DNA from: a virus
DNA: 21,325 nucleotides
Strand: one strand, 5' to 3'
IMG/VR virus record: IMGVR_UViG_3300010885_006092
Span: 1-21,325 of that record
Positions within the stretch are counted from its first letter, which is position 1, and every line of letters starts with the position of its first letter. The translations under genes and the position numbers were made by a program. This document shows positions 924 through 15,986 of this stretch, one piece after another. A model generated the notes under the pieces. The model saw only the letters and a list, made by a program, of their open reading frames with translations. It had not been told where the DNA came from and searched no databases.

Positions 924-2342
924 ATGCATAAGTTAGGTGTAATAGTTCCATACAGAGATAGATTTGAACAACTACTCATTTTCAAAAATACAATCAGTTA
1001 TCATTTAAATAAAAGTGGTATTGATTTTGAATTGATTGTAGTTGAACAAGATGGAGCAAAAACATTTAATAGAGGTAAGTTACTGAATGTAGGATTTCAC
1101 TACGCAAAAAAGTTAGGGTGTGATTATGTAGTATTTCACGATGTAGATATGCTACCAATCGATGTAGACTATTCATACTCACCACACCCAATCCATCTCG
1201 CTTCAAATTTCAAATCTCCTATTGGTTTTCAACGAATTGTATTTGACGAATACTTTGGTGGTGTTACAATTTTCCCAACCGATGATTTCGAAAAAATAAA
1301 TGGATATTCTAATGAGTATTGGGGTTGGGGATATGAAGATAATGATTTATTATTCAGATGTCAAAAATACGGATTAGATTTAAATCAACTCAAAACAAAG
1401 ATATTAGGTAGTAATACTTCTGCATTAAAATTCAATGGAATTAACGCATATGTTAAATCTAAGAATACAATAGATACCGATTCCAACCACACTATATTTG
1501 TATCATTCTCGCCTGAGTATATTCATTGCGATGTGAATAAATACGATGATACATTTTCCATATTTACTATTCCGGGTTTAGATTTATCAATAAACTATAA
1601 TTCATATTCTCGTTATAATTTTGAAATATACGATGAAGATGAAAATATTATTTATATTAATTCGGATATAAAACCAAACTACAAAACAAATATATGTGTA
1701 ACAATTGATACTGATAATAAAAACATAAAGATGTATCAAGATGGTAATCTAATTGGTTTTAAAGAATACACCGTCCCATTATACAATTACAGAAGACAAT
1801 CGAAATTATATTTTGGAGTTGGTAATCCAACTAGAATAGAAAATCCAAAATTCTTTGATGGATTAATTAATTCAGTAGCAATATATTCGGATGTATTGAA
1901 TGAAGATGAAGTTAAGGAAATAAGTAATAATAAATACTTTGGATTAACGCATGATTTTGGTAAATACGAATCATCGGATAAATTAAAATTATATTATGAT
2001 GCTAAGTTTATAAAATCATATAAGTTGATGGATTTATCTGGCAATGGTAACGATGGGCAGATATATAATTGTGAGATTGTTCCATATGAAATGGATGAGT
2101 ATAAAATAGTATCAATTCCATATCGTAGAGAGTGTATGTTTGAGTTATTGGAACATGCCGAGAACGGATATGTAAACGGAGCTTGGAAAGATATAACAAC
2201 TCGATATAATCAGTTAAGATATTATAACGAAGTAAATAGAGGATATGTTAATACAAAGGAAGATGGGTTATCTAATTTAAAATTCAAAGAGCATAGCAAT
2301 ATATCTGTGAATACTCAATCACATATAATAGTAGGAATATGA
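924..2342 (+). CDS. GT7 (beta-1,4-galactosyltransferase-like) enzyme with nested LamG domain
   Basis: The 472-residue protein opens with a galactosyltransferase family 7 core. The signatures are VPYRDRFEQL (8-17), FNRGKLLNVGF (48-58), the metal-binding DVDM (73-76) and WGWGYEDNDL (133-142), the hallmark acceptor and donor loop of beta-4-galactosyltransferases. These enzymes move a hexose from a UDP-sugar to a sugar acceptor. Residues about 160-388 form a LamG/concanavalin-like module (ALKFNGINAYV near 167; a LNEDEVKEI strand near 325). The GT7 fold then appears to resume: RR at 400-401, His411 and DGLSNL (447-452), which match the C-terminal part of animal beta-4-GalTs. The lectin domain therefore seems inserted inside the catalytic fold. 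The gene overlaps the next one by four bases (ATGA), and that gene has the same architecture. Sugar donor and acceptor cannot be read from the sequence. Confidence 0.8.
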   Translation: MHKLGVIVPYRDRFEQLLIFKNTISYHLNKSGIDFELIVVEQDGAKTFNRGKLLNVGFHYAKKLGCDYVVFHDVDMLPIDVDYSYSPHPIHLASNFKSPIGFQRIVFDEYFGGVTIFPTDDFEKINGYSNEYWGWGYEDNDLLFRCQKYGLDLNQLKTKILGSNTSALKFNGINAYVKSKNTIDTDSNHTIFVSFSPEYIHCDVNKYDDTFSIFTIPGLDLSINYNSYSRYNFEIYDEDENIIYINSDIKPNYKTNICVTIDTDNKNIKMYQDGNLIGFKEYTVPLYNYRRQSKLYFGVGNPTRIENPKFFDGLINSVAIYSDVLNEDEVKEISNNKYFGLTHDFGKYESSDKLKLYYDAKFIKSYKLMDLSGNGNDGQIYNCEIVPYEMDEYKIVSIPYRRECMFELLEHAENGYVNGAWKDITTRYNQLRYYNEVNRGYVNTKEDGLSNLKFKEHSNISVNTQSHIIVGI

Positions 2343-3802
2343 AGCATAAATTAGGAGTATGTGTTCCGTATCGGAATAGAGAAGAACATATGAATATATT
2401 CGTACCAACTATAAGTGAGTTTCTTACAAAAGCTGGAATAGAACATACGATATATTTGGCACATCAATGTGATGATAAGTTATTCAATAGAGGACTTATG
2501 AAAAACATTGCAGCAAAGTATGCATTCGAAGATGGGTGTGATTATGTAGTTTGGCATGATATCGATATGGTTCCAGAAAACGATACTTGCGATTATTCAT
2601 ATCCCACAGATTACCCACAACATATAGCAGTTAGTATTTCCCAATCCGATTATTGTCTTAAATACGAAGAATACTTTGGTGGAGCAGTATTGTTTACCAA
2701 AGAGCAAGTATATGCAACCAATGGTTATTCAAATGATTATTGGGATTGGGGTATGGAAGATGATGACCTATTTTGGAGATGTGCAAAAGAAGGAATGTTA
2801 AACCGAACTACTTTGGATTATACTAAACGAAAGTTGGTTGGAACATTTGATGGAAAGCAATCCAATATAACAATCCCAATCCGACATACGAATATATTAA
2901 ATAAATCACATACGGTTTCGGTATTAGTAAAAGCTGACCAACAAATTGAAAAAGTTCCTATTTGGTTAATCGGAGATACCAATCGTAGATTTGTAGAGTA
3001 CCCGATATTCAGAAAACCTGGGTATGATTGGGGATTATCATTTAATAATAGTAGAGCATATACTGCTATGTTATGGAGTTCTAATAAAGAACACATATAC
3101 CAATGGATTAAACGATATGAGAATGAGTGGACTTGGGTAACGATGGTAGTTGATACTGATACGAACAAAATGCACTTTTACCTTAATGGTAGAGAGAGTA
3201 GTGCAAGAAATGGAACTGGAACACACTCACCCGTTGATTTAATGAGTTCTTTAAAGAGGTATGGAACTGAAGATTTCTGTGTAGGTTACACACCCAGCAC
3301 ACCACCATTTGAGCCAAACGCATACTTCAAAGGACAGATATCAGATTTGAAATTATGGAATAGAGCATTAACGGAAGATGAGGTTAGTAAATTACATACC
3401 GATACGATATCCGATAATTTAATCATGCATTATGATTTTGAAAAGGTAGATAGAAACACCAATGAACTGATAAACTTGCAAGGCGATAATAATGGAAAGT
3501 TGAATAAAGTTATATTTAAAACAGAGGATATATCAATACCATTCGTATCATTACCATACAGACGAGATGGTAGGTTTAAATGTTTACCACACGAAACTGA
3601 AGGGTTAATAACGGTAGGTGGAATTGATAAGTGGGCAAAAGGAGAAACTACTGCAAGAAATGAAAGAAGATATATCTTAGAAATGCAGCAGGGAAAGATA
3701 GATTACAAACGAGATGGAATGTCCAACTTAGATACAAAGTATACATTAGTAGGTATACAAACAATTTTTAACAATCACAAAATGATAAACGTTACGGTAT
3801 GA
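2339..3802 (+). CDS. Second GT7 (beta-1,4-galactosyltransferase-like) enzyme with nested LamG domain
   Basis: This 487-residue paralogue of the preceding gene keeps the same order of parts. It has VPYRNREEH (9-17), FNRGLMKNI (49-57), DIDM (74-77) and WDWGMEDDDL (135-144). A LamG-like module spans about 165-390 with the typical LKLWNRALTEDEVSKLH element (337-353). The resumed GT7 C-terminus shows RRDGRF (408-413), His418, an N/R pair near 441-443 and DGMSNL (459-464). Trp136 replaced by Asp in the WxWG loop (WDWG instead of WGWG) may alter specificity. The sequences have diverged strongly, so this is an old duplication or two independent acquisitions of one architecture. Both ends overlap neighbours by ATGA, so translation is probably coupled. 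Confidence 0.8.
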   Translation: MKHKLGVCVPYRNREEHMNIFVPTISEFLTKAGIEHTIYLAHQCDDKLFNRGLMKNIAAKYAFEDGCDYVVWHDIDMVPENDTCDYSYPTDYPQHIAVSISQSDYCLKYEEYFGGAVLFTKEQVYATNGYSNDYWDWGMEDDDLFWRCAKEGMLNRTTLDYTKRKLVGTFDGKQSNITIPIRHTNILNKSHTVSVLVKADQQIEKVPIWLIGDTNRRFVEYPIFRKPGYDWGLSFNNSRAYTAMLWSSNKEHIYQWIKRYENEWTWVTMVVDTDTNKMHFYLNGRESSARNGTGTHSPVDLMSSLKRYGTEDFCVGYTPSTPPFEPNAYFKGQISDLKLWNRALTEDEVSKLHTDTISDNLIMHYDFEKVDRNTNELINLQGDNNGKLNKVIFKTEDISIPFVSLPYRRDGRFKCLPHETEGLITVGGIDKWAKGETTARNERRYILEMQQGKIDYKRDGMSNLDTKYTLVGIQTIFNNHKMINVTV

Positions 3803-5199
3803 CACACAACGAAGTAAAAACGGAATTAGATAAAGTCGGTTGTGGATTTTGTTTAGCAAAATGGACACAAGTAACATTAGAATTACAGAGTGGTCATAAC
3901 CATTCCTGCCACCACCCCGGAACACATAAGATATCTAAAACAGAAATAGCCAGAAACCCATCAGCTCTACATAATACCCAATTTAAAAAACTTCGTAGGA
4001 AAGAAATGCTGGAAGGTATTAGACCGGCAGAATGTGGGTATTGCTGGAATGTTGAAGATAATTCAAAACAATTTTCAGATAGGATATTTAAATCGCATGA
4101 ACCATGGTCACTACCATACAAAGATGAGATAATCAATTCAGATTGGAGAGCAGATTTTAATCCTAAATATGTAGAGGTTTCATTTAGTAGCACTTGTAAT
4201 TTTAAGTGTTCATATTGTGGGCCAGCATATAGTACAACTTGGATGGAAGAGATTGAAGAGTATGGTGGGTATCCTACTATGGACAACTTTAATTCAGTTG
4301 AATGGATGAAGCGTGAAGATAAGATGCCGATTCCGAATAGAGAAAAGAATGTATATGTAGAAGCTTTTTGGAAATGGTGGCCTGAATTGTATAGAGATTT
4401 ACATACATTCAGAATTACAGGTGGTGAACCATTGTTGAGTAAAGATATGTGGGGAGTATTAGATTATATTATCAATGAACCAAATCCAAATAAAGAATTA
4501 CATTTAGCAATTAATTCCAACCTAGGAGTACCTGATGAATTGATTGATAAATTAATTACAAAAATAAATAAAATAGAAGATGAAAATAGAGTAAAAGATT
4601 TTGTAATATATACATCTGTTGATGGTTGGGGTGAGAAAGCAGAATATGGTAGACATGGTATGATATTTAATAAATTTTGGGATAATATAAATAAATTATT
4701 ATTAAAATGCCCAACCGTAACAGTTGGTATAATGAGTACATACAATGCATTATCAGTATCAAGCTATCATAAATTGATAGATGGTGCTAATTGTTTAAAA
4801 ATGGAATATGCTTCAAATGATAGGGCATGGGTAACGCCTATAACATTGGATGCATCATTTTTAAGACACCCATTGCACCAAACAGTTCAAATTCTTCCGT
4901 ATGATTTTTCGAAAATAATAAAATCCCATTCAGAAAGAGAAAATGAACTAAAAGAAGTATTTCATAAAAATATAAATGCAAATGGAGTTAGTTTTGGATT
5001 CTCCGATGTTGAAATTTCCAAAATGGAAAGAATCTACGATTGGATGATATCTCCACAGGATGAAGAACAGCAATTAAAAAATAGATATAATTTTTATAAA
5101 TATTTTACAGAGCACGATAGACGTAGAGGAACTAATTTTTGTAAAACATTTCCAGAGTTAGAAGAATTCTACAATATGTGTAAAAATATAAAAATATAA
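3799..5199 (+). CDS. Twitch-type radical SAM protein
   Basis: The 466-residue protein has the radical SAM cluster motif CNFKCSYC (Cys133, Cys137, Cys140), which binds a 4Fe-4S cluster and S-adenosylmethionine, followed by the GGEP motif (208-211). Extra cysteines before the core (Cys15, Cys18, Cys37, Cys79, Cys82) and the N-terminal KWTQVTLELQSG segment fit the twitch-domain radical SAM family, where such cysteines may hold a second cluster. Proteins of this family are common in marine T4-like phages; their substrates are not established. It overlaps the upstream GT7 gene by ATGA and sits within a sugar cluster, so modification of a sugar or glycosylated protein is a reasonable inference only. 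Confidence 0.85.
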   Translation: MTHNEVKTELDKVGCGFCLAKWTQVTLELQSGHNHSCHHPGTHKISKTEIARNPSALHNTQFKKLRRKEMLEGIRPAECGYCWNVEDNSKQFSDRIFKSHEPWSLPYKDEIINSDWRADFNPKYVEVSFSSTCNFKCSYCGPAYSTTWMEEIEEYGGYPTMDNFNSVEWMKREDKMPIPNREKNVYVEAFWKWWPELYRDLHTFRITGGEPLLSKDMWGVLDYIINEPNPNKELHLAINSNLGVPDELIDKLITKINKIEDENRVKDFVIYTSVDGWGEKAEYGRHGMIFNKFWDNINKLLLKCPTVTVGIMSTYNALSVSSYHKLIDGANCLKMEYASNDRAWVTPITLDASFLRHPLHQTVQILPYDFSKIIKSHSERENELKEVFHKNINANGVSFGFSDVEISKMERIYDWMISPQDEEQQLKNRYNFYKYFTEHDRRRGTNFCKTFPELEEFYNMCKNIKI

Positions 5200-6830: not shown

Positions 6831-9800
6831 ATGGATAATTCAAAGATTAACAAAACCATTGTTGTATACTCCGGTAGATTTCAACCATTCCACAAAGGAC
6901 ATTATGCGACTTATAAACATTTAACTTCAAAGTTTGGAGCAGATAATGTTTACATTGGTACATCCAATAAAACCGATAATGCCAAATCTCCGTTTGATTT
7001 TGATGAGAAGCGTGAGATTATGACCAATATGTTTGGTATCCCATTAGATAAGATAGTACAGGTCAAAAACCCATACGCACCTGCTGAAATACTAAATAAG
7101 TATGATACTGAAACTACTGCTTTAATTGTAGTTGTTGGAGAGAAAGATTCAGAAAGATTGAGTGGTAAGTATTTTGAAAAGTATAATGGTAAAGCAGACC
7201 ACCCATATGGTAAAAAAGGATATGTGTATACATCACCTGCTCAACCCAATGCAATTAGTGGAACTGATGTTCGTAGTTGGTTGGGTATAGGAACTGAAGA
7301 TGAAAAGAAAGCCAAATTCTTAAAGGCATACCCTAAGTTTGATAAGAAAATATTTAACCTAATAACATCCAAACTAAAATTATCTGAGGATTTTTTAAGA
7401 GGATACCCATCGCAAGAAGATATGAAAAGAATAGCAAAGAATAATGCAGAATATAGAAAAACTGCGGATAGCAATAAGGATTATGCATATAACCCTATTT
7501 CGGAAAGTGCAGATGATTTATTTTTAGTTGGTGAAGAGTTTGATGAATTTCTTAAAGAATACTTTGATTATATATCAGAAGCAAGTACCAGTGATACTGA
7601 TGATAGTGGTGTAAACGGAAATCATAATATCAGTTGGGATGAATTTGATAATCCTAGAATTGGATATACAGAAAAACTACCAGGTTGGGAAGTACATAGT
7701 CACCTAAGTGATAGTTATGGTGAAAAAATTACAAGTAGAGTTTTGCCTGTATTTAACCATAAAGAAGAAAATGGACCAATGCAACGTGCAATCCATGCTT
7801 CAAAAGGTGAAGATTATGCAAGACAAAAAGCAGAAAAATGGGAAGTATATCCATTCAATGTTAGATTAAACCATGAATACGAACCACATGCACCATATAA
7901 AGTAATGAACGAAAGTATAGATAACATTGTAGAAGATATGGATATTTTTATTCAAGGATACTTTAATGAAGCAGAAAATCCAATCTATAAGAAAACGTTT
8001 GATTACAAAACAAAAGATGGTAAAGCTAAGAAGATAACCGTAGCAGCCGCATTACATTTACCAAAAGACCATCCTGCACATATCCAAGCACAAAAGATAG
8101 TTGGAACAGAACCACGCAAAGTAGATGGAAAAGCAGATGTTAAATCAAAACCAAATGTAGCATCTCAACCAGGTCAACCGGTTCTAAAAGGGCAAACTGC
8201 ACAGGGTAAGATTGATACCGATAAATCCAAATCAGATACTACACCCAATACAGATGGTACTCCAACCGCACAACCTAAACCATTAAGTGGGGCAGAGTTA
8301 AAATCATCCGCTGAAAAGGATTCTAAGAATAGTGCAAGTGGTAAATCCAGAGAAGCACTTATAACAAAGATATCATCTTCAGTAAAGGGTTGGTCTGAAA
8401 AAGAAAAAGAGTTCTTTAAAGATAAAGTTCATAACGGAAATACACCAATACGTCGTAGTTGGGGTGAGGCGATAATGCACAAAGCAACTGGAGCAGGTCA
8501 TGCAATTGTGAATGGATTAAAACACGAAGCACACGAATTCAAAGCAGCAGCTGGTGGTGTTAAGAAATTGATGACTGGGAAAAAATTAGATGATGAAGAT
8601 AAGAAAGCTATGAAAGCCGTTGGGATTAAAATAGTATTAGCTTCTATATCTGGCGTAGCATTTGGTGGATTCGCACATGGAGCAGCTGCATTTGCAAAAC
8701 ATATGGCAATTGAGTTCATACCTCATACCGTTTCCGAAGTAATAGCAACTGGAGTTGGTAAAGCAGCATTGTTCTCAAATCAAGAAGTAGATGATTCAAC
8801 GTATCTAAACATATTTGCAGCAGCAATCGCTGAGAGAATGCAGAATATGGAACCTGATTTGGAAACAACGAGTAAGATAATTGATTCATACAATAATAGT
8901 AGATTGTTAGATAAGTTCAAATCAAATAACGATAATACTGAAACTATAAACGAAGTAATATCAGATTCGAAATTACATAGTATAGCTCACTTTATAAAAT
9001 ACGCTACTGAAAGATTAAAACTAAAGGAAAGACCTAAAGTTGTTCTAATTGGTGGCGAAGAGTTAGCAAAAACCAATACTACATTGGGTGGGTATAATAC
9101 TGAAACAAAAGAGATACTTGTAGCAATCGATGGTAGATTGGCAGCTGATATACTGAGAACCATAGCACATGAAATGGTTCATAGAAAGCAAGATGAGATG
9201 GGATTAGTTACCAACGATGTATTAGATGGTAAGACCGGCTCTAAAATCGAAAACCAAGCCAATGCAGTAGCCGGTATAATGTTAAGAGATTATGGTAAGA
9301 TAAATAGTAAAATCTATACGGAAGGTGTTAACAAACTTACCGAAGGTTCGGCATTAAGTGGTGATGATAGTACAGCAGATGGTGCATATATTCCAAAAGG
9401 TAAGAAACGAAGATTAGCAGGAAACGATGGTGTAAATAAAATTAACCCTTGGTTTAATAATGGTGGATATACTCAAATGGAATATCCAATAGCAGATGCT
9501 ATTTATGGAGATGAAGATGCAAACATCTTAACTGTTAAATATAAATCTGCAAACCTACCACGATTCAAAGAAAAAGTTACTAAGTTTGATAAAGGAAATC
9601 CAAAGGACACCTTACCAGTAGAAAAGTTAAAACCAAAAGTTCCAAAAAAACTTACAAAAGAAGATATAACATTGGATGTAAATGTAGGAGATACAATCCT
9701 TACAGGTAAGTTTAAGAACAAAAAGACAGTTGTAAAAGTTATTGGTACAGATGAGCATGGTATGCCAACAATCAATGGTAAGAAGGTAGTAACATTCCGA

Positions 9801-10937
9801 CATATCAAAGATTTGAATGAGATGGCTAAGAGTGATGAGTTCTATACGCAAATAATGAAATTATATGATAAAGGTGGTTCGTTCACTAAGAAAAAGGTAG
9901 CAGTAGCAGTTTGTGCAGATACCAGAGCAACACGAAAAGAAATCGAAGATACATTAGAAGATTCAGATTACGATACCATTACGGGGTTTGCAGATACATT
10001 AAATATCAAAGAGAATTTATCTGAGATGGCAAAATCCGATTTAGATACCGTTGAGAAATATGCAGATAACCAACTAAGTCCTGAAGAGATTGAATTGGGA
10101 AAGCAGACAGACCATTTCTTTCAAAGATTGAATGACCCGAGAAATGGTAAGGAAATATCAACCGCAGAGTTGATAGGGTTTTTCAAAAGATTAGGAGATA
10201 ATAAGAAACGATTCTTAGAATTTATAAAACAATACCAGCAATTCGTTGTAAAAGATACTCGTACTAATATCAACATTCCGTTTATGCAGCAAGCTAACAA
10301 ATTGATAGCTAAAACGATAATGCGTAAATCGGATTTCAAAAGTTCTACTCCAGTATTCGTAGATGAAATGATAAAGAAAGTTGATGATAAATATGTTGTA
10401 TACCCAAAGAATGGTGGAAAGAGGTTAGGAACTCACAATAGTTTAGCATCTGCAAAACGTCAGTTAGCAGCGATTGAGATAAACAAAGAAAGTAAACTAA
10501 ACGAATCGATGTTATTAGAAGGCGGGGCATATGGACACATGAGTCACCCATTTGATGATATGAATTTGACATTCGGTGATTTAAAAGATATTATTACAAA
10601 AGCATTAGAAGGTAATTTAGAACTTACACGAGAGAAATGTATAGCCGGTGATAGTTTAATACATACTGAAAATAATGGAAAACTACCAATATCAACGTTT
10701 GTCGATGAAAACATTGATGATAAGGTGCTTGCATACAATTCGAATACCAATTCCAATGAATATATGCAAGTTATGGATAAATTTAATAATGATTATTCCG
10801 ATGAGTGGTTACGCATTGAATTGGAAGATGGTAAATACATTGAAGTTACACCAAATCATAGAATGTTTGTAGAGGGTATTGGGTATATTAGAGCCGATGA
10901 ATTGGTGGAAGGTATGGATTTCAAAATAATTCAGTAA
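6831..10937 (+). CDS. NMNAT-like / metallopeptidase-like / ligase-like polyprotein, N-terminal extein plus N-intein
   Basis: The 1368-residue protein has several modules. Residues 8-180 are a nucleotidyltransferase of the NMN adenylyltransferase type, with SGRFQPFHKGH (HxGH at 21-24) and ISGTDVR (142-148). A low-complexity Pro/Thr/Lys linker spans about 430-490. Residues 598-645 are Gly/Ala-rich and hydrophobic. A zinc metallopeptidase-like domain follows, with HEMVH (780-784) and Glu807 as possible third ligand. A small beta domain spans about 942-992, and a YPKNGGKRLG module lies at 1191-1200. A ligase-like domain begins GGAYGHMSHPFDD (1231-1243) and runs to Lys1269. From Cys1270 to the end is an N-intein. 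Several [LI]xE sites (Glu186, 225, 250, 838, 997, 1065, 1225, 1230) resemble prohead-protease cut sites. The ligase domain is completed by the next gene after trans-splicing. Confidence 0.85.
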   Translation: MDNSKINKTIVVYSGRFQPFHKGHYATYKHLTSKFGADNVYIGTSNKTDNAKSPFDFDEKREIMTNMFGIPLDKIVQVKNPYAPAEILNKYDTETTALIVVVGEKDSERLSGKYFEKYNGKADHPYGKKGYVYTSPAQPNAISGTDVRSWLGIGTEDEKKAKFLKAYPKFDKKIFNLITSKLKLSEDFLRGYPSQEDMKRIAKNNAEYRKTADSNKDYAYNPISESADDLFLVGEEFDEFLKEYFDYISEASTSDTDDSGVNGNHNISWDEFDNPRIGYTEKLPGWEVHSHLSDSYGEKITSRVLPVFNHKEENGPMQRAIHASKGEDYARQKAEKWEVYPFNVRLNHEYEPHAPYKVMNESIDNIVEDMDIFIQGYFNEAENPIYKKTFDYKTKDGKAKKITVAAALHLPKDHPAHIQAQKIVGTEPRKVDGKADVKSKPNVASQPGQPVLKGQTAQGKIDTDKSKSDTTPNTDGTPTAQPKPLSGAELKSSAEKDSKNSASGKSREALITKISSSVKGWSEKEKEFFKDKVHNGNTPIRRSWGEAIMHKATGAGHAIVNGLKHEAHEFKAAAGGVKKLMTGKKLDDEDKKAMKAVGIKIVLASISGVAFGGFAHGAAAFAKHMAIEFIPHTVSEVIATGVGKAALFSNQEVDDSTYLNIFAAAIAERMQNMEPDLETTSKIIDSYNNSRLLDKFKSNNDNTETINEVISDSKLHSIAHFIKYATERLKLKERPKVVLIGGEELAKTNTTLGGYNTETKEILVAIDGRLAADILRTIAHEMVHRKQDEMGLVTNDVLDGKTGSKIENQANAVAGIMLRDYGKINSKIYTEGVNKLTEGSALSGDDSTADGAYIPKGKKRRLAGNDGVNKINPWFNNGGYTQMEYPIADAIYGDEDANILTVKYKSANLPRFKEKVTKFDKGNPKDTLPVEKLKPKVPKKLTKEDITLDVNVGDTILTGKFKNKKTVVKVIGTDEHGMPTINGKKVVTFRHIKDLNEMAKSDEFYTQIMKLYDKGGSFTKKKVAVAVCADTRATRKEIEDTLEDSDYDTITGFADTLNIKENLSEMAKSDLDTVEKYADNQLSPEEIELGKQTDHFFQRLNDPRNGKEISTAELIGFFKRLGDNKKRFLEFIKQYQQFVVKDTRTNINIPFMQQANKLIAKTIMRKSDFKSSTPVFVDEMIKKVDDKYVVYPKNGGKRLGTHNSLASAKRQLAAIEINKESKLNESMLLEGGAYGHMSHPFDDMNLTFGDLKDIITKALEGNLELTREKCIAGDSLIHTENNGKLPISTFVDENIDDKVLAYNSNTNSNEYMQVMDKFNNDYSDEWLRIELEDGKYIEVTPNHRMFVEGIGYIRADELVEGMDFKIIQ
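10638..10934 (+). other. N-terminal half of a split intein (99 aa)
   Basis: Residues 1270-1368 of the polyprotein form intein block A, CIAGDSLIHTENNGKLP, with the Cys1270 nucleophile. Block B is IEVTPNHRMF, where Thr1340 and His1343 give the TxxH motif of class 1 inteins. The chain then ends at VEGMDFKIIQ and a TAA stop, with no block F or G. Net charge is about -12 (20 acidic, 8 basic residues), against about +3 in the C half, the complementary pattern seen in split inteins such as DnaE. There is no inserted endonuclease domain. Confidence 0.93.
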
Positions 10938-10979
10938 CTTCCATCTGTTTTTTCTCATCGAAAAATTATTAAATTGTAA

Positions 10980-10987
10980 ATTTATAC
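10980..10987 (+). promoter_or_regulatory. Candidate promoter-like motif ATTTATAC between intein halves
   Basis: ATTTATAC lies 9 bases before the ATG of the C-intein gene, inside the 59-base spacer 10938-10996. It differs by one base from the ATTTATAT octamer found in other gaps. If it is a promoter, the two halves could be transcribed independently. Evidence is composition and position only. Confidence 0.22.
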
Positions 10988-10996
10988 GAATAAATT

Positions 10997-11101
10997 ATGA
11001 AAATTATATCAATCAATAAAATAAATAAAACACAAACTCGCTATGATATAAAGGTGGATGGGCATTCTTGCTATTATGCTAATGGTATATTAATTCATAA
11101 T
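10997..11101 (+). other. C-terminal half of a split intein (35 aa)
   Basis: The peptide starts MKIISINKINK. It has block F, YDIKVDGHSCYYANG, and block G ending ILIHN, with the His34-Asn35 pair that drives branch resolution. The +1 residue is Thr36, which can act as the downstream nucleophile. Length and start style match known C-halves of naturally split phage inteins. Together with the 99-residue N half this makes a 134-residue mini-intein split between blocks B and F. Confidence 0.94.
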
Positions 11102-12172
11102 ACAGATGGCCAAGCACTCGCAATCAGTTGGAAGAATGGTAGGTTAATAGCGGCAAGAAACAAAGGCCACTTAGCAAATGCCGGAGCAAATGCAATGGGT
11201 ATCGAAGAAGTTGAAGCAAAGTTTGGCGGAAGGGGTGGATTGACAGATGCTTACAATTTCGCTATGAAAGATTTATCAGCAGCAATCCAATCACTAACAA
11301 ATGCACAAAGAGATAAAATATTTAAAGAAGGACAATGTTTTATGAATTTGGAAGTAATATGGCCAGAATCAGTAAATGTTATTCCATACGGACAAGCATT
11401 GTTAGTATTCCATAATACAACTTGCTATAATGAAAAGGGTGAAGCAATTAGTGCAGACCAATCGGCAGCTAAAATATTAGCCGGAATGATTAAGCAAGTA
11501 AATGCAGAAGTTCAATCAAAATATACGATTCAAGGACCACCTGTTGTTGAATTACCAAAGAATACGGATTTAGAACAAAAGAAAGCAGGGTATCTATCCA
11601 AACTTTCTAAATTAGAAAATCAATTTGGACTTAGTGATTCTGATGGAGTAGCAGATTATCATTCAGCATGGTGGGGTGATTTCATAGATAAAAACGCACC
11701 ATTTGAAGTTGATAAGATAACAAAAGATGCACTGATTAGACGTTGGGGATTCTATGATACATCATTCAGATTAACTACAATTGCAAACCCAGAATTAAAA
11801 GCATGGGCAGCTACGCAGGATAAAGTGAATGTGGCAAAACAACAGAAAGCTAATATCAAACCATTTGAAGAAATATTCTTAGGGGTTGGTGCAGATGTGT
11901 TATCATTTATGAGTTCAGTATTGACGGTTAATCCAAATACTGCAATTAGGAATATGAAGAACAGATTAAAAGATGTAGCAGATAAAGTTAGAAATGGTGG
12001 CGACCCTACTATGATAGCTAAACTACAATCTGAATTAGAACGATTGAATAACTTAGGTGGAGTTGATAAAATAGTTCCAACCGAAGGGATTGTATTCATA
12101 TATAATGATAAGACTTACAAGCTCACGGGATCATTCGCGCCATTAAACAAACTTATAAATATATTTTGGTAA
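10997..12172 (+). CDS. C-intein plus C-terminal extein of a ligase-like nucleotidyltransferase
   Basis: Residues 1-35 are the C half of a split intein. Residues 36-391 continue the ligase-like domain broken in the previous gene. They start TDGQALAISWKNG, so joining to Lys1269 restores KTDG, motif I of the covalent nucleotidyltransferase (DNA/RNA ligase) superfamily. Further motifs are IAARNKGHL (51-59), FMNLEVIW (115-122, Glu119 as motif III), EGIVFIYND (363-371, motif IV) and TYKLTGSFAP (373-382, Lys375 as motif V). The superfamily activates a nucleic-acid 5' end through lysine-bound AMP; the substrate here is unknown. The frame has a TAA (10991-10993) just before the ATG, so this is a separately initiated protein. 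It ends abruptly after motif V (NKLINIFW), close to the homing endonuclease gene, so a slightly shortened tail is possible. Confidence 0.88.
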   Translation: MKIISINKINKTQTRYDIKVDGHSCYYANGILIHNTDGQALAISWKNGRLIAARNKGHLANAGANAMGIEEVEAKFGGRGGLTDAYNFAMKDLSAAIQSLTNAQRDKIFKEGQCFMNLEVIWPESVNVIPYGQALLVFHNTTCYNEKGEAISADQSAAKILAGMIKQVNAEVQSKYTIQGPPVVELPKNTDLEQKKAGYLSKLSKLENQFGLSDSDGVADYHSAWWGDFIDKNAPFEVDKITKDALIRRWGFYDTSFRLTTIANPELKAWAATQDKVNVAKQQKANIKPFEEIFLGVGADVLSFMSSVLTVNPNTAIRNMKNRLKDVADKVRNGGDPTMIAKLQSELERLNNLGGVDKIVPTEGIVFIYNDKTYKLTGSFAPLNKLINIFW

Positions 12173-12232: not shown

Positions 12233-13060
12233 ATGATTATTTATAAATGTATTAATAAAATATCAAATAAAGTATATATAGGTAAAACTATAAAAACTTT
12301 AGAAGAACGTATTCATCAACATATTAAGATAGCAAATACAAACGTTAAATCAAAATTTCATAAAGCGTTAATATCATACGGATTTGACAATTTTGAATGG
12401 AGTATTATAGATAATACAGATTCGGCAGAGAAATTGAATCAATTGGAAATAGATTATATAAATGAATATAATTCAATATATGATGGGTATAATATGATAC
12501 CAGGAGGAACTGGTGGATATAATCAATTTGCAGTAGATGCTAATAAGATGAAGAAAGGAAAAAGATGGGAAGAAATTTACTCAGAAGCTGGACTGTTAAA
12601 AATGATAACTAGTAAAGAAAAATCATCAACATTTATTACGCAATATAATATCAATCTACCCAAAGAAGAAAAAATTAAAAGAGCAAAGAATGCAAATAAA
12701 GCTAGAACAGATATGGGATATAAACATAGTTTAGATACCAAACATAAAATAGGAAATGCACAACGTGGTATTACAAATGAAATGAGATATGGGGTAGAAG
12801 CAGCTATTCGGCTAAGTAAAAAGGTATCCGAAGCCACTAAAGCGGCTATGAAAAATGTAGATAGAGAATTATTAGGTAAAAAATCAGTTGAAGCTAGAAT
12901 ACCATATTGGAATAAGAAGCATGAATCCGATAGAATTGAAATATTAAAATTAAAAGAAGCAGGATATAAAATAAAACATATATGTGCTAAGTTAGATATA
13001 TCAGTTCCAACATACTATAAAAGATTAAACGAAACAAAAAATACTAATAATAAGTTATAA
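12233..13060 (+). CDS. Free-standing GIY-YIG homing endonuclease
   Basis: The 275-residue protein begins with a GIY-YIG nuclease domain. IIYKCINK is the GIY-strand equivalent, VYIGKT (14-19) is the YIG strand, and Arg26, the catalytic Glu72 (LEIDYI) and Asn87 follow in order. Residues about 163-179 (GYKHSLDTKHKIGNAQRG) fit a NUMOD3-type DNA-binding motif. Residues 234-266 (RIEILKLKEAGYKIKH and on) look like a helix-turn-helix. This layout is typical of phage homing endonucleases of the Seg/I-TevI type, which cut alleles lacking the element and so copy themselves and linked DNA. It sits 60 bases after the C-extein gene and 9 bases before the next gene. It may mobilise the split intein or only itself; its target cannot be read here. 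Confidence 0.88.
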   Translation: MIIYKCINKISNKVYIGKTIKTLEERIHQHIKIANTNVKSKFHKALISYGFDNFEWSIIDNTDSAEKLNQLEIDYINEYNSIYDGYNMIPGGTGGYNQFAVDANKMKKGKRWEEIYSEAGLLKMITSKEKSSTFITQYNINLPKEEKIKRAKNANKARTDMGYKHSLDTKHKIGNAQRGITNEMRYGVEAAIRLSKKVSEATKAAMKNVDRELLGKKSVEARIPYWNKKHESDRIEILKLKEAGYKIKHICAKLDISVPTYYKRLNETKNTNNKL

Positions 13061-14378: not shown

Positions 14379-15986
14379 ATGTCTCTTCAACAACAACCGG
14401 CAAAGACGTTAAAGGAGATTATAGCAGACGAGTATCGTAAGTGTGGGCAAGACCCGATTTACTTTATGAAAAAATACTGCGTAATCCAACATCCACAACG
14501 TGGTAAAGTTCCGTTTCACTTATATCCATTCCAAGAGGATTGTTTAACCGATTTTAAGGATAACCGATTTAATATCATTCTCAAATCTCGTCAGTTAGGT
14601 TTATCAACTCTTTCGGCGGGTTTTATTCTTTGGAAGATGTTATTCAACCAAGATTTCAACGCATTGGTTATTGCTACTAAAGTAACGGTAGCAAAGAACT
14701 TAGTTGAGAAGGTTAGGGTAATGCATGATTTACTTCCGGTATGGTTAAGAGATGGTGGTAATAGTTCAGTTGAAGATAATAAACTTTCACTTAAATTAAA
14801 GAACGGCTCACAATGTAAAGCAATCGCATCTTCTCCAGATGCAGGACGTTCTGAGGCACTATCACTATTAGTAGTTGATGAGGCGGCATTCATTAGAGAT
14901 ATCGATGAGATTTGGCTATCAGCACAATCAACACTTTCAACTGGTGGTTCGGCAATTGTATTATCTACTCCTAATGGAGTTGGTAACTGGTTTCATCAAA
15001 TGTGGGTAAAAGCAGAAGAAGGCGCTAATAGTTTTAATACAATACAACTACATTGGACAGACCATCCAGAAAGAAACCAAATTTGGAGAGATGAACAGAC
15101 TCGTATCTTAGGAATTAAAGGAGCAATACAAGAGTGTGATGCATCGTTTGTTAGTTCCGGTGATACCGTAATTGATCCAGATTTATTGACTTGGTATAAA
15201 AATACATATGTGATGGACCCGGTTGAAAAGCGTGGGTTTGATGGTAATTTATGGGTATGGGAGTATCCCAACTATAATCGTCAGTATATGGTAGTAGCTG
15301 ACGTTGCACGTGGAGATTCTTCCGACTACTCTACTTGCCAAATACTTGATATACAAGATAGTTCACAAGTTGCAGAATACAAAGGTAAGATTGATACAAA
15401 GGATTTCGGAAACTTCTTAGTAAGTTTAGCAACTGAATATAATAATGCACTTTTAGTTATTGAAAATGCAAATGTTGGTTGGGCAACAATTCAACAGGTA
15501 ATCGATAGAGCATATGGTAATCTATTCTATATGAGTAAAGATTTGAAATACATAGATGTAGAACGCCAATTATCTAATAAGTTTTACAGAGATGAAAAAC
15601 AAATGGTAGCTGGATTTTCAACAACATCGAAGACCAGACCTCTTATCATCTCTACCTTAGATACTTACCTTAGAGAGAAGGACATCATAATACGTTCTAG
15701 CAGACTCATAGATGAACTATTTACATTTATTTGGTATAATGGTAAGGCAGAAGCAATGAAGGGATATAACGATGATTTAACGATGGCACTATCTATTGGG
15801 CTATGGGTTAGGAATACTGCATTAAGATTGAAGCAAGAAGGAGTGGATTTGACACGTGCAATGTTGGATTCATCTACAATGCAGACAAGTGCCGGATTCT
15901 ACTCAAATAATTGGGATAAGGGCAATCCGTTTGAAATGCCAACTGCTCATGGAGAAAAAGAAAGTTTACTTTGGTTGCTTGGATAA
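14379..15986 (+). CDS. Terminase large subunit (T4 gp17 type)
   Basis: The packaging motor ATPase and nuclease has 535 residues, against about 610 for T4 gp17. The P-loop region reads LKSRQLGLST (68-77), the adenine-binding side lies upstream (FHLYPFQEDC, 46-55), and Walker B is LLVVDEAA (163-170) with Asp167 and Glu168. A coupling motif is near VLSTPNG (194-200). The RNase H-like nuclease domain has Asp308 in VVADVARGD, Glu361 in VIENANVG and the acidic pair Asp465/Asp466 in YNDDLTMAL. The usual P-loop lysine position is Leu75; Lys69 or Arg71 at the start of the loop would have to serve, as in deviant Walker A motifs of other terminases. It sits upstream of the portal gene, as expected for a head module. 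Confidence 0.96.
   Translation: MSLQQQPAKTLKEIIADEYRKCGQDPIYFMKKYCVIQHPQRGKVPFHLYPFQEDCLTDFKDNRFNIILKSRQLGLSTLSAGFILWKMLFNQDFNALVIATKVTVAKNLVEKVRVMHDLLPVWLRDGGNSSVEDNKLSLKLKNGSQCKAIASSPDAGRSEALSLLVVDEAAFIRDIDEIWLSAQSTLSTGGSAIVLSTPNGVGNWFHQMWVKAEEGANSFNTIQLHWTDHPERNQIWRDEQTRILGIKGAIQECDASFVSSGDTVIDPDLLTWYKNTYVMDPVEKRGFDGNLWVWEYPNYNRQYMVVADVARGDSSDYSTCQILDIQDSSQVAEYKGKIDTKDFGNFLVSLATEYNNALLVIENANVGWATIQQVIDRAYGNLFYMSKDLKYIDVERQLSNKFYRDEKQMVAGFSTTSKTRPLIISTLDTYLREKDIIIRSSRLIDELFTFIWYNGKAEAMKGYNDDLTMALSIGLWVRNTALRLKQEGVDLTRAMLDSSTMQTSAGFYSNNWDKGNPFEMPTAHGEKESLLWLLG

Follow-up and report, generated by a model that had tools for sequence, protein, structure and literature searches.

A probable mobile, naturally split intein of the fractured-gene type in a ligase-like gene of a T4-like phage, with the scar of a deleted homing endonuclease gene

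The window considered here is a whole 21,325-base contig of an uncultured virus in IMG/VR (IMGVR_UViG_3300010885_006092), a single metagenomic contig in which the gene of a large ligase-like protein is divided into two open reading frames (ORFs), each carrying one half of an intein at the break. Very probably a mobile and naturally split intein, of the “fractured gene” type, sits here in a ligase-like gene of a T4-like phage and has been deprived of its homing endonuclease gene (HEG). The terminase and the portal protein are T4-like by Pfam and PHROG profile matches. By the portal protein, the closest isolates are Microcystis phage Mel-JY01 and Flavobacterium phages (48–49% identity), and no DNA-level similarity between the window and isolate phages was found. 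The coordinates of the locus are collected in Table 1.

The N-half ORF (6831-10937) encodes 1368 amino acids (aa), with the codon of Cys1270 at 10638 and the motif TPNH at residues 1340-1343, and the C-half ORF (10997-12172) encodes 391 aa, beginning with MKIISINKINKTQTRYDIKVDGHSCYYANGILIHN followed by T. The gap between them measures 59 nucleotides (nt; 10938-10996), and the C frame is closed by a TAA at 10991-10993. The window holds Cys1, TxxH, a terminal His-Asn pair and Thr as +1 nucleophile; Cys1 and T71-P72-N73-H74 are invariant in an N-half alignment of ten sequences, as is HN/TDG in 11 aligned C-halves (the slash marks the insertion point here and below). Each half exceeded the curated cut-off of its intein model (TIGR01445 intein_Nterm, E=3.4e-11; TIGR01443 intein_Cterm, E=3e-5), and each was matched by Pfam Intein_splicing (N-half 3.3e-7, C-half 1.5e-5). 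The halves bear net charges of -12 and +3, and the predicted spliced product has 1269+356 = 1625 aa. The two ORFs are broken at the canonical split point, a break shared with 19 HEG-bearing relatives and with L105 (related loci are given by working number). The original prediction, which read the letters as a phage gene with a naturally split intein, is therefore well supported: an N-intein with block A at Cys1270, TxxH at 1340-1343 and a TAA at its end, a C-intein opening with an ATG after 59 bases and followed by Thr at +1, the TAA in the C frame, the opposite charges and a spliced length of about 1625 residues were all recovered, the borders and the nucleophiles (Cys1, Asn35, Thr+1) are correct, and the comparison of both halves with intein profiles agrees.

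The intein interrupts REK/TDGQALAISW, directly after the lysine of a conserved KTDG. The insertion is precise, with 153 homologues reading REK/TDG uninterrupted; in L190 the frame stays open for 1624 codons, intact and with the site uninterrupted, and the C-extein has over 400 viral relatives. The N-terminus of the N-extein is cytidylyltransferase-like (PF01467, E=5e-7; phrog_395 cytidyltransferase, 9.5e-16). Among 21 empty-site homologues, K45-T-D-G48, E129 (NLEVIWP), E373-G-.-V-F and K385 (YKLTG) are invariant or nearly so. The motif order I, III, IV, V is that of covalent nucleotidyltransferases (ligases, capping enzymes), and the host presents motifs I (KxDG), III (E), IV (EGxV) and V (K). 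Judged by these motifs, the intein site would directly follow the would-be catalytic lysine of a ligase-like host. The ligase-like domain gave no Pfam hit, nothing useful in PHROG and no ligase in a PDB sequence search, where matches to ribosomal eS6 were judged spurious. With a structure model of the host (AlphaFold2; predicted local distance difference test score, pLDDT, 70), the top eight Foldseek matches were archaeal RNA ligases, all non-significant at E values of at least 0.19.

Occupied contigs were collected with patterns for the junction and for the N side and with a profile search using the N-half. Among the 80 viral relatives closest to the C-extein, the site is empty in 78 and holds a split intein in one (L078), and the remaining sequence is truncated; a second relative set contributed 75 more empty sites, which brings the empty-site IMG/VR loci to 153 altogether. 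Besides the window, 23 contigs are occupied. Nineteen are fractured genes whose halves are separated by an intact or nearly intact HEG (L078, L082, L085, L087, L089, L091, L093, L094, L095, L097-L102, L104, L106, L107 and L286, the last being a more distant member), two are split without a HEG (L105, 12-nt spacer; L291, 55-nt spacer), and two have a continuous mini-intein within a single open frame (L092 and L108). The inner HEG of the relatives encodes about 244 aa (more in a few loci), lies at the same two break points and usually overlaps the C-half start with its 3' end. It matched PHROG homing endonucleases at 1e-8, a RAP domain weakly (E=0.016) and 1VSR at E=3.9 only, and its AlphaFold2 model (pLDDT 70) searched with Foldseek is only suggestive of a Vsr-like nuclease fold. 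All 14 relatives returned by a scan with the inner HEG came from already known intein contigs, so this HEG subfamily appears to be specific to the KTDG-site intein. In L093 (1617) and L099 (4364, oriented), the inner Vsr-like HEG contains one internal stop codon, and these are HEGs caught early in decay. A genome scan found one host relative, on a contig of a Pelagibacteraceae metagenome-assembled genome, with the site empty; archaeal matches of that scan were rejected as the same host, being DNA-polymerase inteins at D/TDG. Two archaeal DNA polymerase inteins at that site (L255, L263) end in HN/TDG, with +1 to +3 residues equal to those of the phage K/TDG, a sharing that reflects common target words or chance.

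The 59-nt spacer of the window is the scar of a deleted HEG, about 0.7 kb of which has gone from between the halves, since the spacer matches both HEG ends. It starts with CTTCCATCTGTTTTTTCTCA, which resembles the block that follows the N-half stop and precedes the HEG in relatives (for example TAACTTCCATCGGTTTTTTCACA in L107), and goes on with ATCGAAAAATTATTAAATTGTAAATTTATACGAATAAATTATGAAAAT, whose translation in the HEG frame is IEKLLNCKFIRINYEN. This peptide is identical at 14 of 16 positions to the HEG end of L101, IEELLNCKFIRIKYEN, and its L078 counterpart is IEELLLCKFIRIKYEN; the 16 HEG-derived codons overlap the C-half start, as in the intact loci. In local nucleotide alignments the spacer scored 48-56 against the HEG 3' ends of L078, L098 and L101, against shuffle maxima of 33-34 (0 of 500 as high), and 39-45 against the HEG 5' flank of L078, L098, L101, L106, L107 and L093 (40-45 for L078, L106, L107 and L093; again 0 of 500 as high; other loci weaker). 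These shuffles preserve base composition only, but neither the reading frame nor the ranking across whole loci depends on them. When whole loci were scanned (4-17 kb, both strands), the HEG 3' end was the top-scoring place in L101, L102 and L085, in L078 it shared the top rank with the homologous HEG at the terminase gene, and N-half/HEG junction tiles ranked among the best in L093 and L107. The 55-nt spacer of L291, treated alike as a negative control, matched no HEG end. The earlier view that the break is not one simple indel was thus right: no simple indel explains it, because a whole HEG was deleted with both its ends retained as spacer. Elsewhere, the L078 gene for the terminase large subunit (10416-12043) is broken too, with a homologous Vsr-like HEG after it, and L107 has the HEG end a second time in the corresponding downstream region, at about 6.7-7.1 kb; the terminase of the window (14379-15986) is intact.

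The intein has spread horizontally; the element is mobile, because the intein and host trees differ. The host tree, with 61 tips, requires at least 8 changes of occupancy; in it the window ligase is sister to the empty-site L002 (99/90), and L078 groups with the empty L059 (100/100). On the intein tree the window falls with L102 and L092 (79/93, weak), apart from its host neighbours, and the HEG-less L105 is nested in a HEG-bearing clade (98/96). A single-clade tree for all HEG-less forms was rejected in the approximately unbiased (AU) test (p-AU 0.001); therefore, HEG absence is not one old state, and the HEG was lost more than once. For the continuous inteins of L092 and L108, ancestral or re-fused, the tree gives no decision (p-AU 0.12 for one clade). 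The intein is under purifying selection, with ratios of non-synonymous to synonymous substitution rates (dN/dS) of 0.14-0.31 for the halves (window compared with L102, L092 and L078) and of 0.15-0.17 for the N-half of the HEG-less L105 compared with its relatives. The catalytic residues of the intein and both exteins are intact in the window. From the sequence, then, the window intein is functional-looking and HEG-purged, and we read the low dN/dS as a sign that it may have been kept active since the host enzyme needs splicing.

The proposed history begins with a mini-intein at KTDG, which would have been broken by a free-standing Vsr-like HEG to give the order N-half, HEG, C-half. The window lineage would later have lost about 0.7 kb of the HEG, with the 5' flank and the last 16 codons remaining as spacer. 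The 1368-aa and 391-aa proteins would be translated separately, and the intein halves would associate (-12 with +3); Cys1 and Thr+1 would perform the acyl transfers, Asn35 would cyclise, and a 1625-aa protein with the K-T-D-G motif restored would be the product. The ligase active site would be broken until splicing, so that selection for the host enzyme would maintain intein activity also where no HEG is present. Several points weigh against this account. Trans-splicing of the halves is a step that we infer, the putative ligase function of the host rests on motifs, the usual block F histidine position is Ser in all members, the dN/dS history mostly predates the loss of the HEG, and the window is known from one metagenomic contig. 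That ligase is the selected function of the host, we infer as well.

Other explanations of the split were weighed against this evidence. HEG-less splits without a scar exist (L291, with a 55-nt spacer and no HEG trace; L105, with 12 nt), and they lend some plausibility to a direct split by a small insertion or rearrangement in a lineage that never held a HEG. This explanation, already disfavoured for the window, has a slim chance of being right there, as both HEG ends can be recognised in the spacer in the right order, with the HEG frame reading IEKLLNCKFIRINYEN. It is highly improbable that an error of sequencing or assembly produced the split, or that the gene is a decaying pseudogene. A single metagenomic contig with stops in two frames at the break might suggest so, but the same two break points recur in 19 independent HEG-bearing contigs and two HEG-less ones, the spacer is recognisable HEG sequence, and catalytic residues and exteins are intact at dN/dS of 0.14-0.31. 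The short spacer, together with the continuous mini-inteins at the same site (L092, L108), would also suit halves joined by translation, through a frameshift or a ribosomal bypass of about 60 nt, and then spliced in cis. However, the N-half stop is in frame, the C frame is closed by its own TAA, the C-half ATG is conserved across split relatives (GTG in L085), and most HEG loci permit the C-half to start from its own start codon only. No Shine-Dalgarno is visible at any window gene, and the A/T-rich leader of the C-half resembles those of the other genes and is normal for this phage. Joining by translation is, on these grounds, scarcely credible.

One further possibility complements the loss of the Vsr-like HEG: the free-standing GIY-YIG HEG downstream may have replaced the purged gene and may now move the split intein with its flanking gene, by collaborative homing or co-conversion. 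The GIY-YIG gene stands at the same place in L092, L093 and L099, all intein-bearing, and in L190, where the site is empty. It thus occurs in three intein-bearing lineages (window, L092, L093/L099) whose inner HEG is deleted, absent or interrupted by a stop, that is, in 3 of 6 lineages with an impaired inner HEG against 0 of 10 with an intact one (Fisher p=0.036, on small counts), and in 0 of the 153 empty loci of two host scans. However, a dedicated scan found the empty-site L190, so this HEG also travels alone; exclusivity to intein-bearing loci was rejected, and the turnover reading was downgraded because of that empty site. Moreover, occupied and empty representatives differ at p=0.05 when L190 is counted, and the gene is absent from the HEG-less L105, L108 and L291. 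We consider such a turnover doubtful. Collaborative intron homing has been suggested to originate when a free-standing HEG takes the place of an inner one (PMC10448857), and the window locus may fit such an origin, suggestively only. If true, HEG turnover would have been observed, and the split intein would be the passenger of another, unrelated selfish gene. As a separate observation, L092 (18-2045), L093, L099 and L102 have an HNH-like endonuclease segment in frame with the ligase-like domain and immediately upstream of it, a fusion seen only in intein-bearing loci among the loci looked at.

The fractured genes that Dassa et al. are said to have described in 2009 combine split inteins with Vsr-like homing endonucleases. 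The window locus is like them in that a conserved phage enzyme gene is broken at a split intein and 19 relatives have a free-standing HEG between the halves; it differs in that its own HEG is deleted, only the ends remaining, and in its host, a ligase-like KTDG protein. The free-standing HEG between the halves is found in those 19 relatives and is missing from the window, which is a derivative of the fractured-gene type and no full member. The NrdJ-1 intein also has a phage fractured-gene origin. It is the closest solved relative of the continuous L092 intein (PDB 8UBS, E=1.6e-14), but its host is a ribonucleotide reductase and its insertion site another. The gp41-1 intein (PDB 6QAZ) is similar in size and has the canonical split position, although the match is weaker (E=0.004) and its host is a helicase. 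The halves of the cyanobacterial DnaE intein are far apart in the genome and fixed. These split inteins likewise have no HEG, and their trans-splicing, predicted for the window, restores a protein; in contrast, a 59-nt spacer in which the HEG scar is visible separates the window halves, and the distribution of the element is patchy. In collaborative homing, HEG-less introns are moved by a neighbouring HEG (PMC2988022; PMC10448857). The window likewise has a HEG-less element with a free-standing HEG nearby, but here the element is an intein and the neighbour a candidate nuclease only.

Fractured genes and split inteins are thus a known kind, from which the present locus departs by its HEG-purged state, in which a scar can still be read, by its KTDG host and by the range of states found at a single site. 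The suggestion that the host protein and site may be new stands in part: no isolate phage carries an intein at the KTDG site (0 of 50,697 phage records) and no describing paper was found, but 23 other uncultured viral contigs are occupied. That no paper on an intein in a KTDG ligase-like host was found is weak evidence, since most subscription papers and the 2009 list of fractured-gene hosts lay outside the search. Invasion by a HEG is a proposed route to split inteins, and to our knowledge intermediates between continuous and split inteins are rare. Naturally split inteins are believed to descend from continuous ones (PMC12707363). In phage populations the KTDG site shows most of the stages: empty sites, fractured genes with a HEG, HEGs carrying a stop, a deleted HEG that left a scar, a split with a bare spacer, and continuous inteins. 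With these stages at one site, the order of events can be tested directly, and so can what becomes of split inteins after HEG death. The window locus would thereby catch one way in which naturally split inteins can arise. The position of the insertion suggests that enzymes can be kept inactive by an intein for as long as the catalytic motif has not been rebuilt by splicing, and the window, L105 and L291 offer new natural split-intein pairs for protein engineering.

Table 1. Features of the split intein locus in the window.
Feature	Coordinates	Strand	Description
N-extein	6831..10637	+	1269 residues; N-terminal cytidylyltransferase-like domain; ends ...LELTREK at the catalytic-type lysine of KxDG
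N-intein and TAA	10638..10937	+	99 aa; Cys1, block B TPNH; intein coding 10638-10934, TAA 10935-10937
Deletion scar, 5' part	10938..10957	+	Intergenic block preceding the HEG in relatives, CTTCCATCTGTTTTTTCTCA
Deletion scar, 3' part	10957..11004	+	Last 16 codons of the deleted Vsr-like HEG, IEKLLNCKFIRINYEN
C-intein	10997..11101	+	35 aa; own ATG, penultimate His34, terminal Asn35
C-extein and stop	11102..12172	+	356 residues; Thr+1, remaining ligase-like domain, motifs NLEVIWP, EGIVF, YKLTG
GIY-YIG HEG, free-standing	12233..13060	+	60 nt 3' of the C-half gene; PF01541 2.8e-9, phrog_7168 1.1e-19

Other fractured genes were noticed in the course of the analysis. L301 (2824-4703) contains one broken at KLHG/SN, with an intein and a HEG between; the site resembles RNA ligase motif I and would be, by appearance, a second ligase motif I serving as an intein site. 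In L292, L294 and L297, DnaB-like helicase genes are fractured at GGET/SGKSTLAQ with an HNH-type HEG between the halves, and in L302 (2824-4703) a radical SAM-looking gene (FGCIYC/CFSQYQR) is fractured, also with a HEG between the halves. In the window itself, two adjacent related genes (924-2342 and 2339-3802; about 480 aa each) are glycosyltransferase-like by sequence, and a radical SAM gene (3799-5199; phrog_14086) adjoins this pair.
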